Shown piece after piece: positions 10,498 through 24,883 of a DNA stretch of 26,329 nucleotides. Location of the stretch: positions 1-26,329 of the IMG/VR virus record IMGVR_UViG_3300031658_003088; one strand, given 5' to 3'. This DNA comes from a virus. A model generated the notes under the pieces. The model was not told the origin of the DNA. It ran no database searches and saw only the letters and a list, made by a program, of their open reading frames with translations. How positions within the stretch are numbered: position 1 is the first letter of the stretch; each line of letters starts with the position of its first letter. The position numbers and the translations under genes are program-made.

Positions 10498-10735
10498 GTT
10501 TGCCCAATATCCCCCGTATGCAACAGCGGCTGAAGCTAAAGAGATACGTAAAATTGCTAGAACAGCTAAACAACAAGCCTTTGAAAATAGAGTAGACAGT
10601 CAACAAAATCGGGTGATTGCCTATGAGACTCACATCGATACAGTCGGGGCGACACCCGAGCGCAAACAACGGTTGCGTGAGTTAAACACTATCTTAGATA
10701 AATTCACGCAACAAAAGAATAGGTCTTACAAATGA
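10430..10735 (+). CDS. Membrane-anchored helical protein, possibly lysis-associated
   Basis: This 101-residue protein has an N-terminal membrane segment (VYAGLAGIGVIVGILTGW) followed by a polar helical region rich in Lys, Gln, Glu and Arg (AEAKEIRKIARTAKQQAFEN, RKQRLRELNTILDKF). The topology, a single N-terminal anchor and a long periplasmic helix, resembles an i-spanin, but a better Rz/Rz1 pair lies downstream. TAGGAG at 10419-10424 precedes the ATG. The stop TGA overlaps the ATG of the endolysin gene by four bases, tying it to the lysis operon. Confidence 0.65.
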   Translation: MKKVYAGLAGIGVIVGILTGWFEFAQYPPYATAAEAKEIRKIARTAKQQAFENRVDSQQNRVIAYETHIDTVGATPERKQRLRELNTILDKFTQQKNRSYK

Positions 10736-11187
10736 GTAGCTACGGCACATCCTCCAAAGAAAGACTTGCAACCTGTAGTCAAAATATACAGGCTGTTATG
10801 TATGGTGTTATTGAATGTCTCCCTTGGACAGACCCAGTATCTGGCATCACTATTGATGACTGCACTATAATTGAAGGGCACCGGAATGAGTTTCGACAAA
10901 ATTATTTGTACGACACCAAAAAATCTAAAGCTAGATATCCGGACTCAAGACATAACAAATTACCAAGTGATGCCGTTGACGCTGCACCCTATCATGCGAC
11001 AGCACCTCATATCCATTGGAATGATAAAGAAGAATTTATTGCCTTTGGAAGATTAGTTAAGCAGGTATCTGAGGCTTTAGAGATTAATATACGTTCCGGT
11101 ACCGATTGGAATCAGAATGGCATTAGCGTGGATAAAGATCCACATGAGTCATTTTTTGATGGCCCGCATCATGAAGAGGTATTGTAA
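10732..11187 (+). CDS. Endolysin, M15 (VanY/L-Ala-D-Glu endopeptidase-like) peptidase
   Basis: The protein has 151 residues. The order is SSKERLATCSQNIQAVMYGV at the N-terminus, IIEGHRNEFRQNYLY (46-60), SRHNKLPSDAVDAAPY (72-87), IHWNDKEEFIAFGRLV, IRSGTDWNQNG (120-130) and FFDGPHHEEV at the end. This is the M15 zinc peptidase layout; H74, D83 and H146 are the expected zinc ligands. Such enzymes cut peptide bonds in the peptidoglycan stem during lysis. Relatives usually have 'DxPHFE' at the third ligand, here DGPHHE. There is no signal peptide, so release would need the holin. The TAA overlaps the ATG of the holin candidate. Confidence 0.85.
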   Translation: MSSYGTSSKERLATCSQNIQAVMYGVIECLPWTDPVSGITIDDCTIIEGHRNEFRQNYLYDTKKSKARYPDSRHNKLPSDAVDAAPYHATAPHIHWNDKEEFIAFGRLVKQVSEALEINIRSGTDWNQNGISVDKDPHESFFDGPHHEEVL

Positions 11188-11408
11188 TGACAACTCCTAA
11201 AAAACCACCACCCAAATCATATAAACGTGAAGTAGCCTGGTGTCTTCTAGGGGTTACCTTACTGATGATCATTAAGCTCTTCGTGTACACTGAGGACCCA
11301 AAGCTTGCTACTGCCCTCACAACAGCCTTTAATGGCTGGGTATTAGTGTCTATTCCCACTGCTATGGCAGCTTTTGGGCTTCACTCATGGCAAAATAAGG
11401 ATAAATGA
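11187..11408 (+). CDS. Holin candidate (two membrane spans)
   Basis: The 73-residue protein has a short basic, proline-rich N-terminus (TTPKKPPPKSYKRE). Two hydrophobic segments follow, about residues 16-33 (VAWCLLGVTLLMIIKLFV) and 46-65 (FNGWVLVSIPTAMAAFGL), and then a polar tail SWQNKDK. Size, charge and two spans fit a class II holin that releases the endolysin. Its start overlaps the endolysin stop by one base and the Rz start overlaps its stop by four bases, which is the usual lysis-cassette arrangement. Confidence 0.7.
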   Translation: MTTPKKPPPKSYKREVAWCLLGVTLLMIIKLFVYTEDPKLATALTTAFNGWVLVSIPTAMAAFGLHSWQNKDK

Positions 11409-11896
11409 TGACCAAGATCCTCGTAATCACTATCATCGTTCTAGGGGGCGCCTTAACCCTTGCAACCGAACTTTGGCTAAGTGCTCGGGATGATTTAGCT
11501 AAGAATCAGGTAAAATTAGATGATGCTAATGCTGAAACAATTAAACAAAAATTACAAAATACTCTATTAAAGTTAGAGGCAGCCAAGGCAATAGGCCAAA
11601 TTACTGTTATGGCCGAGGAGAGGAAAAATGATGCTATACGTTATCAAACAGAACTTAATAGAATTAACAGTCGCCTCGTCAGTTCTAAAAAAGCGGCTAC
11701 GGAACACCCTGAACGTTACGGTGCTATTGCTACTTTCCGTATCCGTCGTGGGATGCGAGACATTTGTAGGAGTGGAGAAGGCTCTCCCGACACCTGTAAA
11801 ATTAAAAGTGTACGTCCCGCCAAGGCCAGCACCAGTTATCCCCGTAAATTTGACGTTATCCCAGGTAAACAATCAAGTAGCAAAGCAATTAAGTGA
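11405..11896 (+). CDS. Rz: i-spanin, Rz-like inner-membrane subunit
   Basis: This 163-residue protein has one N-terminal membrane span (ILVITIIVLGGALTLATELWL). A long periplasmic helix follows, rich in Asp, Lys, Asn and Glu (ARDDLAKNQVKLDDANAE, KQKLQNTLLKLEAAKA, AEERKNDAIRYQTEL), and a basic, less structured C-terminus. This is i-spanin topology: it spans the periplasm and pairs with an outer-membrane lipoprotein to fuse the two membranes at lysis. The o-spanin gene starts inside it in the +1 frame at 11628, as in many Rz/Rz1 pairs. The ATG overlaps the holin stop. Confidence 0.8.
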   Translation: MMTKILVITIIVLGGALTLATELWLSARDDLAKNQVKLDDANAETIKQKLQNTLLKLEAAKAIGQITVMAEERKNDAIRYQTELNRINSRLVSSKKAATEHPERYGAIATFRIRRGMRDICRSGEGSPDTCKIKSVRPAKASTSYPRKFDVIPGKQSSSKAIK

Positions 11897-12032
11897 AGAC
11901 GGAATAGCCTTTGATTACACGGCTATGAGCATTGAAGATGGTTCTCTTCTTATGACTTGGTTAGCAGCAATTAAGAATAACCAAAGAGCTTGGGCTAATT
12001 ACGCTAAATATTGGGAAGACAAATTTAAATAG
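11628..12032 (+). CDS. Rz1: o-spanin, Rz1-like outer-membrane lipoprotein (nested start)
   Basis: The ATG at 11628 follows GAGGAG (11615-11620) inside the Rz gene and reads in the +1 frame; it continues 136 bases beyond the Rz stop. Residues 26-43 form a signal peptide ending in a lipobox VVGC, with Cys43 as the lipidated residue. A proline-rich segment follows (ALPTPVKLKVYVPPRPAP), typical of Rz1. At 134 residues it is longer than the classic lambda Rz1, with a C-terminal helical domain (SLLMTWLAAIKNNQRAWANY) that resembles longer o-spanin variants. The 25-residue polar lead before the hydrophobic core is unusual. Confidence 0.8.
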   Translation: MMLYVIKQNLIELTVASSVLKKRLRNTLNVTVLLLLSVSVVGCETFVGVEKALPTPVKLKVYVPPRPAPVIPVNLTLSQVNNQVAKQLSEDGIAFDYTAMSIEDGSLLMTWLAAIKNNQRAWANYAKYWEDKFK

Positions 12033-12040
12033 GAATATAC

Positions 12041-12535
12041 TTATGACTTTTCTTCTGATGACATTAACCGTTTTTCTAGGTTCCTCAACTCGTGCGTTAG
12101 TCGGTTCTGGACGTAGTCTTTTTCCAAAGCCGGTGACTTATCTGCTCGCGTCTGTACTGTGCGCCAGTATTGGATTAGGTCTCGCTCCATCTCCGTCAGC
12201 CATCCATCTACTAGCTGCTCTTTGGGCAGCACTGGCTGTGACTGTAAGCTTGTCAGCTGGCTATACGAATTGGGAGAAGACTGCTGTAATGCTGCCACGG
12301 CTGGCAATACCGAGCTTATTTGTTGTAATGCCGCTAATGTATACGATTGGAATTCATCTAAATTTTCTAATTTATGTGCTATTTTCGATAGGTGTCGCAC
12401 TACTATACCCACGCCGAGAAGCTGCTTATCAATATCTACTGGCTCTGAAGATTCCGTACTATTGGCAGTGGGTTGCCGATCCCGTTGATCCGGCAATAGT
12501 CCATCGGAAGTTACGTCTGTATACGCCATTTTCAT
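12041..12535 (-). CDS. Hydrophilic protein A-minus, antisense to a membrane-protein gene
   Basis: The 164-residue hydrophilic protein is the last gene of the minus-strand operon. It has no signal or membrane segment; the middle is Gln/Ser-rich and helical (LAALQQISSVLPAVAALQQS). The C-terminal third has QPVLPKE and ERDLIQYWRTVQTRADK. The minus-strand gene at 13154-13636 has QPELPKE and EVALIQHLRSEGLSADK at the same spacing, so the two look like paralogues. Purine-rich AGAAGAG precedes the start. The whole gene lies opposite the plus-strand frame 12043-12630, with codon position 1 opposite position 1; its TAA stop shares a base with that frame's ATG. Function is unknown. Confidence 0.6.
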   Translation of the reverse strand: MKMAYTDVTSDGLLPDQRDRQPTANSTESSEPVDIDKQLLGVGIVVRHLSKIAHKLENLDEFQSYTLAALQQISSVLPAVAALQQSSPNSYSQLTSLQSQPVLPKEQLVDGWLTEMERDLIQYWRTVQTRADKSPALEKDYVQNRLTHELRNLEKRLMSSEEKS

Positions 12536-12630
12536 TTTTCTCTTCTAGTGATTTTTGGGATAGCGCAAGGTTAGCTGAGTGTGCCTCAGGAGCTGCTCAT
12601 ATTGGGCTATTACCTATATTATTTATATAG
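12043..12630 (+). CDS. Polytopic membrane protein A-plus, end of the lysis operon
   Basis: This 195-residue protein follows the Rz1 stop by 10 bases with AGGA at 12031-12034. It is strongly hydrophobic, with about four membrane spans (residues 2-15, 30-48, 53-71 and 88-118). The motif FLGSSTRALVGSG near the N-terminus and PLMYTIG...LLYPRR in the second half also occur, diverged, in the plus-strand frame at 13123-13638 (LLGGSARSFVGTG, PLVYLFG, LFYPHR). It resembles small phage membrane proteins with an N-terminal span followed by a GSG/GR loop, of unknown role; a lysis-related role is possible from position. The last 60 residues lack a counterpart in the second copy. It overlaps the minus-strand gene A almost entirely. 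Confidence 0.65.
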   Translation: MTFLLMTLTVFLGSSTRALVGSGRSLFPKPVTYLLASVLCASIGLGLAPSPSAIHLLAALWAALAVTVSLSAGYTNWEKTAVMLPRLAIPSLFVVMPLMYTIGIHLNFLIYVLFSIGVALLYPRREAAYQYLLALKIPYYWQWVADPVDPAIVHRKLRLYTPFSFFSSSDFWDSARLAECASGAAHIGLLPILFI

Positions 12631-12799
12631 AATTACCGGTCCATACGTTAGCAGTTTTACAGGTTTTACACACCCGATTGCCTGAATGAGTTGAGGTAAA
12701 CACCTCAAAGCATGAAAGGCATTTTCTACGTAATGTCTTATATTGGTATGCTATTTCTGCATCAGGATCAGTAGGTCTTTTACTATATGGCATTGGCAT
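12623..12799 (-). CDS. Small zinc-ribbon-like protein (58 aa)
   Basis: Reading the minus strand from ATG at 12799 gives 58 residues. The sequence has KCLSCFEVF and RVCKTCKTANVW, i.e. two CxxC pairs 13 residues apart with a basic N-terminal half (KRPTDPDAEIAYQYKTLRRK). This is a typical short zinc ribbon of the type seen in phage proteins with 'RxCLxCxxxF...GNRxCxxC'. It may bind nucleic acid or RNA polymerase, but that is inference. AAGGAGA lies 12 bases before the ATG, a rather long spacing. It converges with the plus-strand frame ending at 12630, overlapping by eight bases. Confidence 0.7.
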   Translation of the reverse strand: MPMPYSKRPTDPDAEIAYQYKTLRRKCLSCFEVFTSTHSGNRVCKTCKTANVWTGNSI

Positions 12800-12803
12800 A
12801 ATG

Positions 12804-12986
12804 TTATTTAATCTCCTTACAAGTCGCCTTATCTTTAGGTAGTTTTAGCTTTTGATCTACCTTACGATAAAAGCTAATATTATAGTTATCCATTGCCTGA
12901 TGACATTCAAATATATCTTCGAATTGAATAGTTACTGCATATGGGAAATGAAGGCCAATTATGATGGTTAATATAGCAGGGGTCAT
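12804..12986 (-). CDS. Small secreted or membrane-anchored protein (60 aa)
   Basis: The 60-residue protein starts MTPAILTIIIGLHFPYAVTI, a hydrophobic N-terminal segment that could be a signal peptide or anchor, followed by a polar domain with two cysteines (FECHQAMDNYN, KATCKEIK) that could form a disulfide in the periplasm. AGGAG lies about 11 bases before the ATG on the minus strand. The start overlaps the stop of the previous minus-strand gene by four bases (ATGA), so it is part of the same operon. Function is unknown; an inhibitor or a superinfection-exclusion peptide would have this shape. Confidence 0.65.
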   Translation of the reverse strand: MTPAILTIIIGLHFPYAVTIQFEDIFECHQAMDNYNISFYRKVDQKLKLPKDKATCKEIK

Positions 12987-13141
12987 GATAAGGTTTCTCT
13001 CCTTTTTGTAATAACATACTCATCTATTTCTAAATGATCGTATGGGCAATTATCAATATTACAGGGCATTGTTTGGGGGTAAGGTTTATCTCGTCGTTTT
13101 AGCCGTATTGTGCATAGCTCGCATGTACTGCGTCTTGGCAT
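12983..13141 (-). CDS. Small cysteine-rich basic protein (52 aa)
   Basis: Reading the minus strand from ATG at 13141 gives 52 residues. There is a CELC pair near the N-terminus, then CNIDNC in the middle, between basic segments (RLKRRDKPYP, TKRRETLS), suggesting metal binding. AGGGA lies about nine bases upstream of the ATG, and the preceding minus-strand gene ends 12 bases before it. Its TGA overlaps the ATG of the next gene (ATGA). These operon features make it a likely real gene despite its size. The 5' part also lies opposite the start region of the plus-strand frame at 13123. Function is unknown. Confidence 0.6.
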   Translation of the reverse strand: MPRRSTCELCTIRLKRRDKPYPQTMPCNIDNCPYDHLEIDEYVITKRRETLS

Positions 13142-13638
13142 TTGTAATTTCCCTTATGTTTCTTTTAGGAGGGTCGGCCAGATCGTTTGTAGGTACAGGC
13201 TCCGGTCCACGTTGGCTAGGTAGGTGGTCAGTTTATCCGCCGATAGCCCTTCTGAGCGCAAGTGTTGGATTAACGCCACCTCTTGAGTGGACATATAACC
13301 TAGACCAATTACTCCTTCTTTGGGTAGCTCTGGTTGCTTCTCTAAATCTGGCGATGGGGTGGACGAAGTTACTCGATCAATATCTGCCTCAATGGCTCGG
13401 TTATGTTTGTCGATACGTTCTTGGTGATCCAAAGTGGGATCAAAAACATCAGTCTTATGCTTGGGATTGGGATCATGGTCGGTGGATGGCCGTAAGGTTA
13501 CTGCCTTCGCTAGTGTGTATAAGCCCTCTCGTATATCTATTCGGCCAATTATCTCAGGGGGCGATTTCATATATGGTTCTGTCTCTGATAGCTGGACTAT
13601 TCTATCCACATCGTCAAAGAGTGTTTGGTCAGTCATAG
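13123..13638 (+). CDS. Polytopic membrane protein B-plus, antisense to the minus operon
   Basis: This frame encodes 171 residues from ATG 13123; ATGs at 13042 and 13156 are also possible and none has a good ribosome binding site, which weakens the call. The protein is hydrophobic with about four spans. It is similar to the plus-strand protein at 12043-12630: LLGGSARSFVGTG, LSASVGL, LLLLWVALVASLNLAMGWT, LPSL.....PLVY and LFYPHR have counterparts in order. Several shared residues use quite different codons (R as AGA versus CGT, S as TCG versus AGC), a sign of selection on this protein frame. It covers the whole minus-strand gene 13154-13636. It may be expressed weakly, or be a decaying copy. 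Confidence 0.5.
   Translation: MYCVLAFVISLMFLLGGSARSFVGTGSGPRWLGRWSVYPPIALLSASVGLTPPLEWTYNLDQLLLLWVALVASLNLAMGWTKLLDQYLPQWLGYVCRYVLGDPKWDQKHQSYAWDWDHGRWMAVRLLPSLVCISPLVYLFGQLSQGAISYMVLSLIAGLFYPHRQRVFGQS
13154..13636 (-). CDS. Hydrophilic protein B-minus, paralogue of the 12041-12535 product
   Basis: This 160-residue protein starts MTDQTLFDDVDRIVQLSE and is soluble, acidic at the N-terminus with a charged, proline-containing middle (LRPSTDHDPNPKHKTDVFD). The C-terminal part has QPELPKE and ALIQHLRSEGLSADK, matching A-minus. AGGA sits seven bases before the ATG, and the previous minus-strand gene ends ten bases upstream, so its place in the operon is well supported. The gene is fully opposite the plus-strand membrane-protein frame, in the same 1-to-1 codon phase as the other pair. 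I do not recognise a domain. Function is unknown. Confidence 0.75.
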   Translation of the reverse strand: MTDQTLFDDVDRIVQLSETEPYMKSPPEIIGRIDIREGLYTLAKAVTLRPSTDHDPNPKHKTDVFDPTLDHQERIDKHNRAIEADIDRVTSSTPSPDLEKQPELPKEGVIGLGYMSTQEVALIQHLRSEGLSADKLTTYLANVDRSLYLQTIWPTLLKET

Positions 13639-13646
13639 CCTAATCC

Positions 13647-13841
13647 TCATTTTTGCTTTGTGTGATCAAATACTTCAGTTGAATCATAGAAGTCTTGTAA
13701 TCGCTTAATAAGATGTTTAGCTGTACCTCTACTAATCGTACCATTTACTAGGCATACCCCATTCTCACCATGGACATAATGGGTGCACCGAGTATCCCCG
13801 TGTTGATGCACAAACATAGGAAATATACGAGGTTCAGTCAT
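13647..13841 (-). CDS. Small His/Cys-containing protein (64 aa)
   Basis: The ATG at 13841 gives 64 residues; a TTG seven codons upstream is less likely. The ATG overlaps the end of the previous minus-strand gene by eight bases. The first half has FVHQHGDTRCTHYVHGENGVC, with several His and two Cys that could bind a metal, followed by a helical segment RGTAKHLIKRLQDFYDST. There is no membrane segment. The sequence looks like one compact strand-rich domain plus a helix. I do not recognise the family. Its stop is ten bases before the start of the next minus-strand gene. Confidence 0.65.
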   Translation of the reverse strand: MTEPRIFPMFVHQHGDTRCTHYVHGENGVCLVNGTISRGTAKHLIKRLQDFYDSTEVFDHTKQK

Positions 13842-13944
13842 CTTTAAAACTATCCTGATCAATCAGCATCCTGACTCTGACCATAGTTGCGGTCTCTCTT
13901 TCAAATTGCTGTATTACTTTTTCAATTCTCTCAGCTTCAGTCAT
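13834..13944 (-). CDS. Very small helical protein (36 aa)
   Basis: Reading the minus strand from 13944 gives 36 residues beginning MTEAERIEKVIQQFERE and ending in an acidic tail. It is likely one amphipathic helix. AGGA lies eight bases before the ATG. The start overlaps the upstream stop by four bases (ATGA) and the stop overlaps the next ATG by eight bases. The ordered overlaps on both sides support it as a coding gene. Confidence 0.55.
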   Translation of the reverse strand: MTEAERIEKVIQQFERETATMVRVRMLIDQDSFKDD

Positions 13945-14057
13945 ACAATGATTCCTATTTGAGCTAAGGCCCTACGGCAGACCTCTACATATGATTTACT
14001 ATTTGTACGCCAGTTTGTGGTGACATACACGCACTCAGATTCCTGGGCTCTAGTCAT
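13941..14057 (-). CDS. Very small protein (38 aa)
   Basis: Reading the minus strand from 14057 gives 38 residues: MTRAQESECVYVTTNWRTN, then a helix-like YVEVCRRALAQIGIIV. It has two cysteines and a hydrophobic C-terminus. Its ATG lies inside the last eight bases of the upstream gene, and its TGA overlaps the next ATG by four bases. There is no recognisable family. The overlaps on both sides are the main evidence. Confidence 0.5.
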   Translation of the reverse strand: MTRAQESECVYVTTNWRTNSKSYVEVCRRALAQIGIIV

Positions 14058-14352
14058 GACTATCACACCAATTTTCATAAGCAGTTTCAGCTAAATCCTC
14101 TAAAAATAATGTGAAGTAAGGGGGGATAACTACTGTTATACCAGAAGCATGCCTAACCCATAAATCTGATAGATCCATCTTATGATGGTCCTCAGTAGTT
14201 ACGAGAATTATCTCAGCACTGCCTGCTTCAGCTGGGTAACATTCAGAAGGTTCTCCGTATAGTTTACCAGGGGTTGGTTCAGTAATCTCAGACTCTACCT
14301 GGATAGGCTGACCTGATGGCAATTCATATTCAAACGAATAAGATATTGTCAT
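14050..14352 (-). CDS. Conserved-looking acidic phage protein, first gene of the minus operon
   Basis: This 100-residue acidic protein starts MTISYSFEYELPSGQPIQVE, with beta-strand pattern, then EPSECYPAEAGSAEIILVTT and a helical C-terminal third (FTLFLEDLAETAYENW). The 'FEYELPSG' opening and the 'YPAEAGSxEI' segment recall a family of short hypothetical proteins found in many phages. TAGGAG lies about six bases before the ATG. It is the most upstream gene of the minus-strand operon and is divergent from the ACP gene, with 67 bases between the two starts. Function is unknown. Confidence 0.7.
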   Translation of the reverse strand: MTISYSFEYELPSGQPIQVESEITEPTPGKLYGEPSECYPAEAGSAEIILVTTEDHHKMDLSDLWVRHASGITVVIPPYFTLFLEDLAETAYENWCDSHD

Positions 14353-14419
14353 TTCATTCTCCTAAGTGTTATTCTTTAATAAATCCAATTTTATTAGCTA
14401 TTAACCATAAGGTGTTAAG
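14353..14419. promoter_or_regulatory. Divergent intergenic region between the minus operon and the ACP gene
   Basis: This is the only divergent gap in the window: 67 AT-rich bases between minus-strand ATG 14352 and plus-strand ATG 14420. It must hold the start signals for the minus operon unless that operon is read from elsewhere. On the minus strand TTAACA followed 16 bases later by TAATAA is a weak promoter candidate. On the plus strand only AAGGTG (14409-14414) as ribosome binding site is clear. Confidence 0.4.
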
Positions 14420-14746
14420 ATGTCATCAACTGAATTTAATTTTACAGATGAAGAATTTCTAACCGTTATTAATTTAATGTGCAAAATGGACATGCCTGCA
14501 GGTAAAGAGTTTATTCCTGTGGCGCACATGGAAGAATTACTTAATGCCGAACGATTGGATAGCTTGGGCATTGTGGTGTTCTTTATTTGGATATCTGAGT
14601 TGTTTGGTATACCTGAGTCAGATGTAGCAGAATTTGCCCAAATAGAGGAGCTCACTCCTCGAGCAATAAAAGACTTTGTTATTGCTAATTGTACGCAAAC
14701 GTACGCTTACGCTGATGCAGAGGAGTTTGCTAAAAAATGTTTATAA
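14420..14746 (+). CDS. Acyl carrier protein-like protein
   Basis: This acidic 108-residue protein is predicted helical. Residues 45-68 read ERLDSLGIVVFFIWISELFGIP, matching the ACP core: a DSL motif whose Ser48 is the expected phosphopantetheine site, followed by helix II and the 'E.FGI' turn. EELTPRAIKDFVI is in place of helix IV. It is longer than a standard 75-80 residue ACP, with a 20-residue N-terminal lead and a C-terminal helix. Holo-ACP would carry acyl chains as thioesters; host holo-ACP synthase would be needed. AAGGTG precedes the ATG. The ketoacyl synthase gene starts ten bases before its end, a clear functional pair. Confidence 0.8.
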   Translation: MSSTEFNFTDEEFLTVINLMCKMDMPAGKEFIPVAHMEELLNAERLDSLGIVVFFIWISELFGIPESDVAEFAQIEELTPRAIKDFVIANCTQTYAYADAEEFAKKCL

Positions 14747-15747
14747 CCCACACAAACTCAGTATATTCTGAAGAGATAACTCTATTAGATCATTTACCAT
14801 GGCCCCAATATGTACACCAGGTAGCCAATGGTGGAGGCATGGTTGTCGAGCGCGGTATTAAGACAATGCCTGCTGAGCTCATTGATTATGTACTTAAAGG
14901 CAAGCATGGAGCCGCTGAAGGCACTGTCGAATTCATTCAAGAGCTATTAGCTACAAATGCCAGAGTTGGCCTTATACTGGCTGCAGGTGGCACCAGCTGG
15001 ACAGGGTACACCTCAAATATTCCCCGAACAGACAAATACCCAATATGTAAGGTTCCTCCTATGGGCGCCACACAAGTGTTTGCTGGGTATCTTGCTAACC
15101 GGTTAGGTTCTTTTGAATACATATCCACGGACTGCACCAGCTGCATTAGTGGGCACTCCGCCTGGTATACAGCCAATAATATGCTTAAATTAGGCCTCTT
15201 AGATGCCATGGTAGTCATCTCCTCAGACAATGGGCTTTCTGAAGAATACTTAGCAATATTTGGTGAACACGGTTTATCTAAATCAGTAGAAGAAGAAGAT
15301 ACTGATATAGTTAAATTCCGAGTAGGCCATGGGTGTAACATAACTATATTTGAAGGCGTTAACCACTTAGCAGCAGTTAAGCGTGACCCAATAGCAATAG
15401 TAACTGATATGCATTTAGCAGCTGAAACGCATGTTAACCCTTTAGGAATATCAGATACTGGTGCCGGGTATGAGAAGGTGATTACTGCTGTAGATACCAC
15501 CGGCATTGACTTTGTTAAGACTCACAGTACATTCTCTGAGGATAATAAAGTGGAAGAAAAGTTAGTTAAAGCTGCCTTTGGTGATATTAGATTAGTTAAT
15601 TATAAACTACGTATTGGCCATACCATGGGGTCTTCTACTGCGATAGAGACTGCTTTAGCTATCCAAGAAGAACAAGGTAAGTTCCTTAGTTTAGGTGCAG
15701 GCATGGGTAATGTATTTTCATCGGCCGTAGTGGAGATTATTAAATGA
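14737..15747 (+). CDS. Compact beta-ketoacyl-ACP synthase (KAS I/II-like thiolase fold)
   Basis: The 336-residue protein is shorter than FabB/FabF (about 410). YISTDCTSCISGHSAWY (128-144) matches the nucleophile region, with C133 at the place of the KAS cysteine. FRVGHGCNITIFEGVNHLAA matches the 'GEGA..LVLE...HA' region. VKTHSTFSEDN (260-270) matches the 'HGTSTP.ND' loop with H263. NYKLRIGHTMGSSTAIE (288-304) matches 'K...GH..GA.G..E' with K290 and H295. So a Cys-His-His triad appears complete. KAS enzymes condense malonyl-ACP with an acyl chain. AGGAG at 14721-14725 lies in the ACP gene. Substrate is unknown; the C-terminal glycine loop is GAGMGN instead of FGFGGTN. Confidence 0.82.
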   Translation: MFITHTNSVYSEEITLLDHLPWPQYVHQVANGGGMVVERGIKTMPAELIDYVLKGKHGAAEGTVEFIQELLATNARVGLILAAGGTSWTGYTSNIPRTDKYPICKVPPMGATQVFAGYLANRLGSFEYISTDCTSCISGHSAWYTANNMLKLGLLDAMVVISSDNGLSEEYLAIFGEHGLSKSVEEEDTDIVKFRVGHGCNITIFEGVNHLAAVKRDPIAIVTDMHLAAETHVNPLGISDTGAGYEKVITAVDTTGIDFVKTHSTFSEDNKVEEKLVKAAFGDIRLVNYKLRIGHTMGSSTAIETALAIQEEQGKFLSLGAGMGNVFSSAVVEIIK

Positions 15748-16091
15748 TATTCAAACACTGTAGTTTAATCCAAGAAGGGGGATCAGTCCTATTTTATAGA
15801 TTTAACCGCCCTCTTAATGGATATATGATAGCCGGGCTATTCATAGCTCCTAATATTGAGGATAAGTTATGCTTTGCTAAAATATGGAAATACTTTGTAT
15901 CTGAAGTAGTTAGAGGAGATGACATATATTGCTCAGTAGCCCTCGGGGTAGAGAATCCTATGTTTGATAGTTACTTAGAATTCTATAAGGAAATTGATGG
16001 TCTTAAAATTTATAAGGTTGATAATTTTCTTAAAGATCAATATAGTTCGTACACTCACCATAAAGTAACGCATGGCCTTAGGCGGGAATAA
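15744..16091 (+). CDS. Unknown protein of the ACP-synthase operon
   Basis: This 115-residue protein begins at an ATG overlapping the synthase stop by four bases, with GGAG at 15732-15735, and ends one base before the portal ATG. The N-terminal part alternates strands (GGSVLFYRFNRPLNGYMIAGLF), then helix-like CFAKIWKYFVSEVVRGDD and strand IYCSVALGV. NPMFDSYLEFYKEIDGLKIY follows and the tail is basic. The alpha/beta pattern with 'N.M...YL.FYK..G' at the end is reminiscent of a small GNAT-type acyltransferase, which would fit the acyl context, but no acyl-CoA loop (RxxGxG) is visible. I leave the function open. Confidence 0.65.
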   Translation: MIFKHCSLIQEGGSVLFYRFNRPLNGYMIAGLFIAPNIEDKLCFAKIWKYFVSEVVRGDDIYCSVALGVENPMFDSYLEFYKEIDGLKIYKVDNFLKDQYSSYTHHKVTHGLRRE

Positions 16092-18182
16092 ATGAGCGAT
16101 CTTATTAAAGATGATGGTGGAGATACCACTGAAATTGATGTCACTACATTAGTGGATTGGGAAAATCCCCCTAAGCTAGCTGACTTAAAGCATGATTTAG
16201 AGTCTGCTCAGTCAGCCCATAAAGCTCACGTTATGGAAGTTGACGCCTGGCTTGCTGTTCTTAAGGGCGAGCAAATCATTAACTCTAAGACCGGTAGATC
16301 TAAACTTGTACCTAAATTGGTACGTAAGCAGGCAGAATGGCGTTATGCTGCGCTATCAGAACCTTTCTTATCTACCGATGACCTATTTAACACATCCCCC
16401 TCTACATTCGAAGATAAAGAAACAGCAGAACAAAATGGTATGCTGTTAAATTATCAGCTTAACTGTCGTATTGATAAAGTGGACTTTGTTGATACTTATG
16501 TTCGCACGGCTGTAGATGAAGGCACTGTAGTTGTTCGTGTTGGTTGGGAGTTCGAAGAAGCTAAGCGTAAAGTATACACCCCTGTTATGGAACCTAGAAT
16601 GGTGCCTGGCCCTGATGGCCAGCCCCAAATGGACCCAGAAACTGGCGTACCTCTTATGGAGGAGGTTAAGGTTGGTGAGACATCTGCAATGAAGATGGTC
16701 ACTATTAAGAATCAACCTGAATTAACCGTATGTGACTATAACAATTTAGTGTTAGATCCCACTTGCCAGGGAGACATAGATAAAGCTGGTTTTGGTGTTT
16801 ATAGTTTTGAGACCTCGTTATCCGAGCTCAAAAAAGATGGCCGGTATAAGAATTTAGATGATGTTAACTTTGAGACTGCTTCTGTATTAGCTGAGCCAGA
16901 TCATAAGATTAAATCTGATGACACTGCCTTCACCTTTCAAGATAAAGCCCGTAAAAAAGTAGTTGCCCGGGAATACTGGGGGTCATGGGATATCCATGAT
17001 ACTGGCGAAGTAGTACCCTTTGTGGCTGCCTGGATAGGCAGCACTTTAATTAGATTAGAAGAAAACCCATATCCTGATAAGAAACTTCCATTTGTGTTAG
17101 TTCAGTACTTACCTCGCCGTAAGAATGTGTATGGTGAGCCTGACGCTGAGCTTATTGAAGACAATCAAAAGATTGTAGGAGCTGTAACCCGTGGTATCAT
17201 TGATATTATTGGACGTAGTGCCAATGGCCAACAAGGTATCCGGAAGGATGCTTTGGATGTTACTAACGCCCGTAAGTTTGATCGGGGTGATGATTATAAA
17301 TTTAATGCTCAGGTAGATCCTAAGCAGGCCTTCCACATGGAAGTGTACCCCGAGATTCCTAGATCAGCTCTCGAAGTACTAGATATGCAAAATAATGACG
17401 CTGAGGCCCTCACAGGCGTTAAGGCGTTCACTAATGGCATTTCTGGCCAAGCCTTAGGAACTACGGCTACTGGTATACGCTCTGCTCTAGACGCTACCTC
17501 TAAGCGTGAGCTAGGCATACTTCGTCGGCTATCAAATGGGTTTAATAAGATTGGCCGTAAGATTATCTCTATGAATTCTGAATTCTTAGATGAAAAAGAA
17601 ATTATTCGTATTACCAATGAAGAGCTTATAGCTATCGATCGTAATGATCTTGGTGGCAAATATGATATTAAACTTAACATTTCTACTGCTGAAGCAGATG
17701 AGCAGAAAGCCAGTGAATTAGCATTCATGTTGCAAACCACTGGTAATAGTATGCCTATAGAAGTTACCCAGATGATCCTATCTGACATTGCTAAGTTACG
17801 TAAGATGCCTGAGTTAGCTAAGCGTATGGCAGAGTTTAAGCCTGAACCTGATCCGTTAGCCCAGAAGAAAGCTGAACTTGAAATAGCATTGTTAGAAGCA
17901 CAAGTGTTTAATGAACAAGCTAAAGGTGAAGAAAACAAGGTGGATGTTGGCCTCAAGACAGCTAAGACAGCTACTGAAGAGGCTAAGACACGCAATATGA
18001 ATAGCGATTCTGATGGTAAGGATCTTGACTTTGTTGAGAAAGAATCTGGTGTTGCTAATGCTCGAGAAACTGAAGCTAATAATAACAAACACGCCCAAGC
18101 CATGGAAGGTAAAGAGCACGATAGGTTAAGTAATCTTGACAGCCAAGCTCTTACCGAGTTAAATAAACCTAACAAAACTTAA
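16092..18182 (+). CDS. Portal protein (head-tail connector)
   Basis: The 696-residue protein is of P22/N4-like portal size. The N-terminal region has KGEQIINSKTGRSKLVPKLV, WRYAALSEPFLSTDDLF and YQLNCRIDKVDFVDTYVRTA; the centre has AREYWGSWD, LPFVLVQYLPRRKNVYGEPD and LIEDNQKIVGAVTRGIIDII. Near residues 455-480 is TATGIRSALDATSKRELGIL, a helical segment conserved in large short-tailed-phage portals. The C-terminal 130 residues are charged coiled coil (LEIALLEAQVFNEQAKGEEN), the region that forms the barrel in related portals. The dodecameric ring seats terminase and DNA. The ATG follows the previous TAA directly; AGGCGGG is the ribosome binding site. Confidence 0.88.
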   Translation: MSDLIKDDGGDTTEIDVTTLVDWENPPKLADLKHDLESAQSAHKAHVMEVDAWLAVLKGEQIINSKTGRSKLVPKLVRKQAEWRYAALSEPFLSTDDLFNTSPSTFEDKETAEQNGMLLNYQLNCRIDKVDFVDTYVRTAVDEGTVVVRVGWEFEEAKRKVYTPVMEPRMVPGPDGQPQMDPETGVPLMEEVKVGETSAMKMVTIKNQPELTVCDYNNLVLDPTCQGDIDKAGFGVYSFETSLSELKKDGRYKNLDDVNFETASVLAEPDHKIKSDDTAFTFQDKARKKVVAREYWGSWDIHDTGEVVPFVAAWIGSTLIRLEENPYPDKKLPFVLVQYLPRRKNVYGEPDAELIEDNQKIVGAVTRGIIDIIGRSANGQQGIRKDALDVTNARKFDRGDDYKFNAQVDPKQAFHMEVYPEIPRSALEVLDMQNNDAEALTGVKAFTNGISGQALGTTATGIRSALDATSKRELGILRRLSNGFNKIGRKIISMNSEFLDEKEIIRITNEELIAIDRNDLGGKYDIKLNISTAEADEQKASELAFMLQTTGNSMPIEVTQMILSDIAKLRKMPELAKRMAEFKPEPDPLAQKKAELEIALLEAQVFNEQAKGEENKVDVGLKTAKTATEEAKTRNMNSDSDGKDLDFVEKESGVANARETEANNNKHAQAMEGKEHDRLSNLDSQALTELNKPNKT

Positions 18183-22291: not shown

Positions 22292-24883
22292 ATGGCTGCA
22301 GTCATTGATCTACTTGAAGATATTGTCGATATTATTATTGCTGTTGTTGAGATAGTTATTGAAATTGTCGAAGCAATAATCGAATTTATTATGTCTTTGT
22401 TGGGGTTTGAAGATCAAGTAATAGAATATTTTGATGTACAGAATATTCCGTTATTTGAGAACCCTGAGAGGGGTAGTCCTGATGCCGCAGTGGTTACCAG
22501 CGCTGTATTACGAGAAGTAGATATTGCTTCTGAGTTAATCTACGCCGGTACATTTCGAAGCCTTAAAGTTAATTTACGTAGTTTTATAGCATTTATAGAT
22601 GATGGTAATTACTTTGAGGATTTCCCTAATGTAGAATCTCATATTGCCCAAATAGGGTATGATGATTTAATAGACACCCTCACCACATTAGAAGGGTCTG
22701 CCTGTTCTTTAGATCAGACTGCCTTAAAAGCATTAGATAACCAATCTTGGATTGCATCATGGATGCAGGATAACCAAGTATATGATGTTGGTACCAATGA
22801 GGTTGGCGCCGGTCGGTATGAGACTGTAACAACTACTCCTATTACCCCGGCCGCAACAGGGTACTCACTAGATGCTGGATCCCCTGCTTTTGAAATATCT
22901 ATAACAGATGAAGTAGCTACTGAAGACAGTGTGCTTGCTGATCAGAGATGGTCTATACAGTTTAATGGCACTGTGTATAATTCAGGGCCGGATGACTATA
23001 GTATTGAAGCTATTGATGCATCTGGGGTAGAGATATTTTTACCATATACTGCCCCTAGTAAGCCTTTGCAGTTACATTATGTTTCATACTATTACGTAAA
23101 TAGCGCCCCTTCTGATCAGTTTATATTTATTTATAAAGTAGGATCCGGAACATATCCTGTATTGGATGCTGGAGTAGAGCAGCCGATCGATATAGATAAC
23201 TCAAATCTACAGGCAATGCCTGCTATCCCATTAAGGATATCCAATGTAACTTACACCTCTTTTACCACAGCTAAGAGAGATGCTATCAATGATTTATGTG
23301 ATTTAGTTGACTTAGATGCAGAGAATATCATTGATGCTATAATGAATGATCCTGGGGTAGTGCCTGGAGATATTGATAACGTATATCTTAATTTTGGTGT
23401 ACCTCTATGGGATACCACCCAGGCAGGGTTAACATACCTTTTTGCTATGTTTGAGAACCTATTCCCTGCGCAGGGCATTACCCAGGGTGACTATAATGAT
23501 GCCGCGTCTGGCGATACAAAGCCAACAAATAACTTAATTATAACTACTGCTGATTATAAATCTGTATTTCAATTTAATTATATTACCTTTGAGCACACTA
23601 CCCTTGCTACGATCGATGGAGATTCAGGTAGTGATGAGAACGGTATATATTATTCAGATATGTCTAAATTTAAAGATGGGATTATAGTTTATGATTATTA
23701 TATTTCCTCAGGCAAGGGTACGTATAATGTAGGATTTAAGTCAGATACACTTGCTGAGGTCACATTATTCTTAGCAGGCACCGGTGTAGTTAATCCCGGT
23801 ACCGTTTCAACTGAGGGAGCTGCTTGGATGCAGCCAACAGTTAAAATGCGTTACACTGACACCCTGCAGGAGTCTGATGGGTCTACTAGCACCCTGCGCT
23901 ACATAACGCCCGACATGGTGTATACAAACGCCTCAGGCACTCTTAGACTCGTCGAGCAGGCCAGTGAGGAAACTACCTCAGGACAGTCTATTACTTACTA
24001 TTTAGCAGATGAAGATGGGTTAGACGCCTATACAGTTGCTGCACCTATCGCAGTGCTAAAAGTAGTAGATGCTGCTTCTGGTAACTTTAAGATGGTTAAG
24101 TTTAACCTGGGTGACAAAGTCGATCTCATGGTTCCACTGCTTTATGAATTTATCCAAAATGGATCTAATCATGACATAAGTAAGCTATTTTTAACTGCCT
24201 CACATATATCAATTTATATTGCCAATTACGAAGTTATCGAGCTGAGTATATGGGCCCAGCTACTAATTATTGCTGCTATTGTTATTGCTATTGTCATAAT
24301 CGTGGTATCTTGGGGTACTCAAACAGGGCCTGTTATGATTGCCTTAGAGGCGATCGTGGCAGGAGTTGCCACAACAGTTATCATCCAGGCAGCTGTAGTG
24401 GCTATTTTACAGGGCCTTATAATTGCTTATGCCATTGAACTAATTATCACTGAGGTGGCTAAACATAGCCCAGAGCTGGCAGCAATATTAGCGGTAGCTG
24501 CCGCAGTAGTTATGGTTGCTTATGGTAACACTGAAGGGTTAGGTTTATTAGATTATGGTAAGATAGTTGGTCTTGCTATGAAAAACCTTAGTATAGTTGT
24601 AAATGTATACGTCGAAGGTTTAGATGAAGAATTAAATTTAGCCTATGAGGCTTTAGTTAAAGACACTGAATTAGAAGATTTATTAGAAATTAAAAAAGAC
24701 TTATTTCAAAAACCTGATGGTACAGCATTAGATCTATTAAATGGCAGCCTACGTTTACAGCCCCAATTCCCCCTTAGAGCAGAAGAATTCTTAGCCCTGA
24801 GTGAAGGGTACATAGAAGCTAATTTTATACAATATGAGCAAACTGCGGGGTATGTTTTAGCTACATCAGGCACAGTAGTTTAG
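22292..24883 (+). CDS. Large virion/tail protein with N- and C-region hydrophobic segments
   Basis: This 863-residue protein starts with a long hydrophobic, acid-containing helix (LLEDIVDIIIAVVEIVIEIV). The body is beta-rich and resembles large tail or hub proteins (RSFIAFIDDGNYFEDFPNVE, ALDNQSWIASWMQDN). Residues about 650-750 hold three very hydrophobic stretches (LLIIAAIVIAIVIIVV; VATTVIIQAAVVAILQGL; LAAILAVAAAVVMVAYG). Such spans are unusual in a stable tail protein and suggest membrane insertion during DNA entry, or a core-buried region. It sits between capsid-associated genes and internal virion proteins. No peptidase or glycosidase motif is seen. Confidence 0.7.
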   Translation: MAAVIDLLEDIVDIIIAVVEIVIEIVEAIIEFIMSLLGFEDQVIEYFDVQNIPLFENPERGSPDAAVVTSAVLREVDIASELIYAGTFRSLKVNLRSFIAFIDDGNYFEDFPNVESHIAQIGYDDLIDTLTTLEGSACSLDQTALKALDNQSWIASWMQDNQVYDVGTNEVGAGRYETVTTTPITPAATGYSLDAGSPAFEISITDEVATEDSVLADQRWSIQFNGTVYNSGPDDYSIEAIDASGVEIFLPYTAPSKPLQLHYVSYYYVNSAPSDQFIFIYKVGSGTYPVLDAGVEQPIDIDNSNLQAMPAIPLRISNVTYTSFTTAKRDAINDLCDLVDLDAENIIDAIMNDPGVVPGDIDNVYLNFGVPLWDTTQAGLTYLFAMFENLFPAQGITQGDYNDAASGDTKPTNNLIITTADYKSVFQFNYITFEHTTLATIDGDSGSDENGIYYSDMSKFKDGIIVYDYYISSGKGTYNVGFKSDTLAEVTLFLAGTGVVNPGTVSTEGAAWMQPTVKMRYTDTLQESDGSTSTLRYITPDMVYTNASGTLRLVEQASEETTSGQSITYYLADEDGLDAYTVAAPIAVLKVVDAASGNFKMVKFNLGDKVDLMVPLLYEFIQNGSNHDISKLFLTASHISIYIANYEVIELSIWAQLLIIAAIVIAIVIIVVSWGTQTGPVMIALEAIVAGVATTVIIQAAVVAILQGLIIAYAIELIITEVAKHSPELAAILAVAAAVVMVAYGNTEGLGLLDYGKIVGLAMKNLSIVVNVYVEGLDEELNLAYEALVKDTELEDLLEIKKDLFQKPDGTALDLLNGSLRLQPQFPLRAEEFLALSEGYIEANFIQYEQTAGYVLATSGTVV

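Follow-up and report, generated by a model that had tools for sequence, protein, structure and literature searches.

An incomplete phage genome carries, at the head of its head gene run, a three-gene cassette that encodes an acyl carrier protein (ACP), a compact and divergent beta-ketoacyl-ACP synthase (KAS) and a small protein predicted to have a GNAT fold. We propose with moderate confidence that this cassette is co-expressed with the head genes as an acyl-transfer module, in which a beta-ketoacyl chain made by the KAS on the phage ACP is used by a lineage-specific partner. The proposal is based on the gene order, the predicted folds of the KAS and the third protein, the conserved active sites, the signature of selection, the recurrence of the genes in other phages, the swappable partners and the absence of other pathway genes. 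The DNA analysed, called the window, is the whole 26,329-nt virus record IMGVR_UViG_3300031658_003088.

The three ORFs are located as the preliminary description had reported, with stop/start overlaps and with the portal gene directly downstream (Table 1). The ACP and KAS ORFs overlap by 10 nt, the KAS stop and the start of the third ORF share an ATGA, and the portal ATG at 16092 immediately follows the stop of the third ORF. A likely ribosome-binding site, AAGGTG, was read ahead of the ACP ATG, and a promoter scan around the gap upstream of the ACP gene gave nothing above shuffled controls. The portal protein matched PF23899 (SU10_portal) with an E-value of 1.3e-136 and PHROG 1216 with 4.8e-224, and its identity to Schitoviridae portals is 54%. 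Like the portal, the capsid and terminase are of the N4 type, which places the phage in the Schitoviridae (N4-like); this 26-kb fragment of an incomplete record has no ORF of the size of the giant virion RNA polymerase. In the two cultured Schitoviridae examined, Pollock and Vibrio D497, the cassette is absent upstream of the portal gene, and lysis genes or an endolysin occupy the site. Three uncultivated contigs with portals 45–50% identical (L206–L208) also have no cassette there. Elsewhere in the window, a block of reverse-strand ORFs extends from the lysis genes to the cassette (12041–14352), and those tested gave no convincing PHROG match. Two overlapping ORFs in different frames (11405–11896 and 11628–12032) lie downstream of the endolysin gene (10732–11187), in a layout like that of nested Rz/Rz1 spanins.

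Table 1. Features of the cassette and its surroundings in the window, and diiron-type genes found beside ACP-KAS in other contigs
Feature	Position	Strand	Description
Short gap	14353–14419		from the divergent ORF 14050–14352 (–) to the ACP start; sequence reading
Acyl carrier protein (ACP)	14420–14746	+	108 aa; Asp47-Ser48-Leu49 predicted phosphopantetheine site; opens the head gene run
Compact beta-ketoacyl-ACP synthase (KAS)	14737–15747	+	336 aa; Cys136, His263, Lys290, His295
Minimal GNAT-fold protein, putative acyltransferase or acyl-binding partner	15744–16091	+	115 aa
N4 gp59/SU10-type portal	16092–18182	+	follows the GNAT-fold gene in the head gene run
Ferritin-like diiron protein, two ExxH motifs	L078:6455–7243; L080:7030–7737; L091:257–1198; L190:179–1003		beside ACP-KAS; weak Rubrerythrin/FA_desaturase_2 matches

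The second gene had been described as encoding a KAS-like synthase, and the structural and profile comparisons with FabF agreed with that description. The AF2 model of the KAS (pLDDT 95.3) aligned with FabF (1ox0) over 312 of its 336 residues with a VIA Z of 33.1, that is, over a full predicted thiolase fold, and with ApeO with a Z of 32.9. A profile built from 45 KAS relatives matched FabF structures with an E-value of 1.1e-29. Curated models see the window KAS weakly: it missed the Pfam ketoacyl-synt cut-off (16.2 bits vs 20.8) and matched the NCBIfam FabF model with an E-value of 3e-8; its relatives L001 and L080 passed the Ketoacyl-synt_C cut-off. Cys136, His263, Lys290 and His295 are each present in 74 of 74 aligned sequences and match the catalytic set of cellular ketosynthases. 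The two histidines and the lysine had been named before, together with Cys133 as the catalytic cysteine. The latter is ruled out, as Cys is found at position 133 in 3 of the 74 sequences vs all 74 at Cys136, which aligns with the known ketosynthase nucleophile and is the predicted nucleophile here. On the basis of the alignment and the match in fold, the four residues are predicted to meet in one site. The N-terminal signature (GxGxxSxxG) is missing from the window KAS and GMGN stands at the position of GFGG in FabF-type enzymes, so its chemistry may differ from that of FabF. Judging from the model and the alignment, we conclude that this protein is a condensing enzyme with the FabF/thiolase fold, a full Cys-His-His-Lys set and predicted activity.

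The serine assigned to the ACP in the preliminary description, Ser48 in a DSL motif, proved to be the right one. Asp47 and Ser48 are the only invariant columns among 25 ACPs drawn from three types of phage and from Campylobacterota; within the N4-like plus diiron-type set, Phe62 is also invariant. A DS[LMIFA] motif was present in all 172 ORFs of 80–200 aa upstream of the KAS gene, which were gathered without a motif filter and include near-duplicate loci and bacterial outgroups. With the profile of the 25 ACPs, the 60 PDB matches listed were all ACPs or ACP-like subunits, with a best E-value of 1.5e-4. The window ACP had no match in Pfam, PP-binding included, and its relative L080 scored 19.7 bits vs the cut-off of 20.8. 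The conserved residues indicate that the first gene product is an ACP with a DS(L/M) attachment serine, and its phosphopantetheinylation is predicted.

The 115-residue product of the third gene had been noted as present and overlapping but left blank as to its nature, and this second part has to be amended, since the protein models as a minimal GNAT fold. Its AF2 model (pLDDT 83) has a b-b-b-a-b-b-b core corresponding to GNAT b2–b7 only, and aligned with spermidine acetyltransferase 2fl4 over 94 residues with a VIA Z of 8.4. Nearly all of the best 50 structural matches were GNATs, and the anti-CRISPR AcrVA5 was also among the matches (Z 7.9). Because Z values of 7–8 are common for small proteins by chance, the fold assignment is good but not certain. 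The RxxGxG/A acetyl-CoA loop (b4/a3) was not seen on reading the alignment of 38 family members, and the protein may therefore not be a transferase. None of 50,697 phage records contained a relative; the protein belongs to no Pfam family and showed no sequence link to any known synthase or to relatives of known function.

The cassette had been considered not to be a standard podovirus module, and its absence from Pollock and D497 agrees with this; it is no one-off, however, and occurs in hundreds of contigs and in several phage types. Profile scans of viral contigs gave 323, 550 and 324 KAS relatives in three overlapping scans, and 80 relatives were kept from each. The resulting ORF set contained 203 loci with a recognisable KAS, counting bacterial outgroups and re-fetched duplicates, and 54 distinct loci have the N4-like cassette arrangement. 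The relatives are 26–69% identical to the window KAS. Of the loci whose upstream sequence is available, nearly all have the ACP gene directly 5' of the KAS gene, and this holds across different phage types; in L091 the diiron-type gene lies between the two. No KAS relative other than that of MW202545 was found in the 50,697 phage records, and no plasmid relative was found. The carriers are uncultivated aquatic phages, and in the N4-like group the cassette lies within the head operon.

The partner of ACP-KAS depends on the phage type. In the N4-like group it is the 115-aa GNAT-fold protein, whose gene is next to the KAS gene in the loci examined, including two in which a start-codon filter had masked it. 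The second group, of the MW202545 type (57 kb, Manatee Spring), has a 145-aa third protein. Its family gave no convincing match in Pfam, PHROG or PDB, and homology with the 115-aa protein was not supported (hhalign probability 0.2%). In the third group (L078, L080 and L091), which has tail-fibre and PAAR-type genes, the neighbour is the diiron-type protein; this was not found elsewhere in N4-like or MW202545-type records. The diiron-type partner with its two ExxH motifs, which is shared with a Sulfurovum cluster, points to acyl-chain chemistry. Among other features of these phages, the virion-region proteins of MW202545 (L001:13497–16658) are unusually Cys-rich, with runs like CCSCCCSCCC.

In the tree, the KAS of all phage groups and two Sulfurovaceae KAS were separated from the aryl-polyene and FabF-type enzymes with 100/100 support, with long branches involved. 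L193–L199 and L201 fell outside the phage KAS clade and look like ordinary bacterial enzymes; they were not retained as members. One Sulfurovum contig has a diiron-ACP-KAS set in a polyketide-like cluster with FabG-like and large PKS-like genes, and this context suggests, short of proof, a bacterial origin of the module. In a Sulfurovaceae MAG (L191, 470-kb contig), a phage-clade ACP-KAS pair lies in an aryl-polyene-like cluster, where its neighbours are an ordinary FabF-type KS and a gene resembling 4HBT thioesterases.

Among the 54 distinct N4-like loci, KAS identity correlated with portal identity (r 0.78), and the median dN/dS of close pairs was 0.18 for the ACP, 0.16 for the KAS and 0.22 for the GNAT-fold protein. 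These values indicate that the module is old and kept, and that the cassette is inherited with the head genes under purifying selection. Together with the profile E-values of the KAS and the ACP and the recurrence of the loci, they also argue against a chance assembly of ORFs.

Other genes of acyl-chain synthesis were not found beside this core. A family profile search for phosphopantetheinyl transferase (PPTase), malonyl transferase, ketoreductase and acyl-AMP ligase gave no match in any of 14 long phage records, among which MW202545 is a complete circular phage genome and the others are possibly incomplete; the same four families were matched in 10 to 13 genomes used as controls. No record had more than a single ketosynthase match, and a complete type II fatty acid synthesis (FAS) or polyketide synthase (PKS) pathway was not found in these records. 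Therefore, the module must borrow the host AcpS and the host supply of malonyl and acyl groups. The suggestion that the phage builds an acyl chain of its own is weakened to this extent, as the module would at most condense host-derived units.

In the proposed mechanism, a host PPTase would load the phage ACP at Ser48, and acyl and malonyl groups would come from host fatty acid synthesis. Cys136 of the KAS would accept the acyl group, and His263, His295 and Lys290 would assist its condensation with malonyl on the phage ACP, so that one or a few condensations would leave a beta-ketoacyl chain on a phage-dedicated carrier. In the N4-like members, the GNAT-fold partner would transfer this chain onto an amine. 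A virion protein or a membrane-active phage protein would be the most likely acceptor, given that the cassette is located in, and inherited with, the head operon. In other phages, the diiron-type or 145-aa protein would take the partner's place. Expression would occur late in infection. It is possible, though we hold it doubtful, that in all three phage groups the ACP and the divergent KAS make a custom beta-ketoacyl group, which the swappable partner completes or attaches to a phage protein in the course of virion assembly. To our knowledge, no such protein modification has been described in any virus. A candidate target is the 863-aa protein encoded downstream in the window (22292–24883; PHROG 2220), which begins with a long hydrophobic stretch. 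In Pollock and D497, which have no cassette, the proteins at the corresponding position lack this stretch and carry MGLFS(K/R)KK close to the N-terminus.

Other explanations were weighed against the acyl-transfer module. The cassette could consist of auxiliary metabolic genes (AMGs) that, during infection, increase or divert the fatty acid synthesis of the host or alter its membrane composition, with no phage-specific product. Chain elongation in host fatty acid synthesis centres on an ACP and a KAS, and phage ACPs have already been termed AMGs (PMC11705849, PMC8224337). However, the phage KAS belongs to a clade distinct from the FabF and aryl-polyene-type enzymes compared and is altered in the GFGG region, and the cassette forms part of the head gene run, with partner genes that differ between lineages. 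We consider this explanation unlikely. That the cassette produces a small diffusible acyl compound, such as an N-acyl amine, a signal or a pyrone, appears quite improbable to us, although a 3-oxoacyl amide would need no more than an ACP, a KAS and a GNAT fold and the Sulfurovum cluster provides a polyketide-like setting for KAS relatives. The module would then be comparable to LuxI and FeeM, which are GNAT-fold synthases that use acyl-ACP. The phage GNAT-fold protein, however, has no sequence link to known synthases, and the position of the genes in the head operon speaks for a role in the virion.

The cassette might also act by binding and not by catalysis, in which case the ACP or KAS would be a decoy, tying up acyl groups, the PPTase or FAS partners of the host, and the GNAT-fold protein would have an anti-defence or structural role. 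The match to AcrVA5 and the unconserved acetyl-CoA loop are consistent with this. On the other hand, the four KAS catalytic residues and the ACP serine are strictly invariant despite the wide divergence of the KAS, and binding alone does not require invariant catalytic residues; we regard this reading as very improbable.

Comparison with known systems indicates known parts in a new combination. Like FabF and FabB, the phage KAS has a thiolase fold, a Cys-His-His-Lys set and an adjacent ACP; it differs from them in length (336 aa vs about 410), in its 15–20% identity and in the two motifs noted above, and no other FAS genes were found in the phages. It shares its fold and a dedicated ACP beside the KS with the aryl polyene and type II polyketide systems (ApeO, AntDE and the actinorhodin KS). 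In contrast to these, no second KS or chain length factor, ketoreductase or dehydratase was found in the phages, and the aryl-polyene-type enzymes compared form a separate clade. The Sulfurovaceae pairs (L190, L191) share the KAS clade, GMGN and an ACP directly upstream, with a diiron neighbour in L190. These are on bacterial MAG contigs, however, with thioesterase, FabG-like and PKS-like neighbours, and no phage structural genes were seen. Phage-borne ACPs have been reported as AMGs (PMC8224337, PMC11705849, PMC5463345), such as Alteromonas R22Y gp30 and Erythrobacter R6L ORF32, and Rhodobacteraceae prophages carry fabG-acpP-fabF in the order of the host fab operon (PMC8224337). The cassette differs from these phage ACPs. 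R22Y was rejected as a carrier of the same cassette; its portal region is without it, and a motif scan of the first 45 kb gave no ACP-like ORF. No published description of a phage ACP-KAS module was found in the open-licence literature.

Carrier-bound acyl chemistry run by a phage itself has, as far as we could find, not been described. The cassette also marks out a clade of ketosynthases with an altered gate region. A module that is widespread in uncultivated phages, conserved and located in the virion region suggests an unseen step of infection, which may be the modification of a protein or lipid or the production of a metabolite, and three small genes make this question directly testable.
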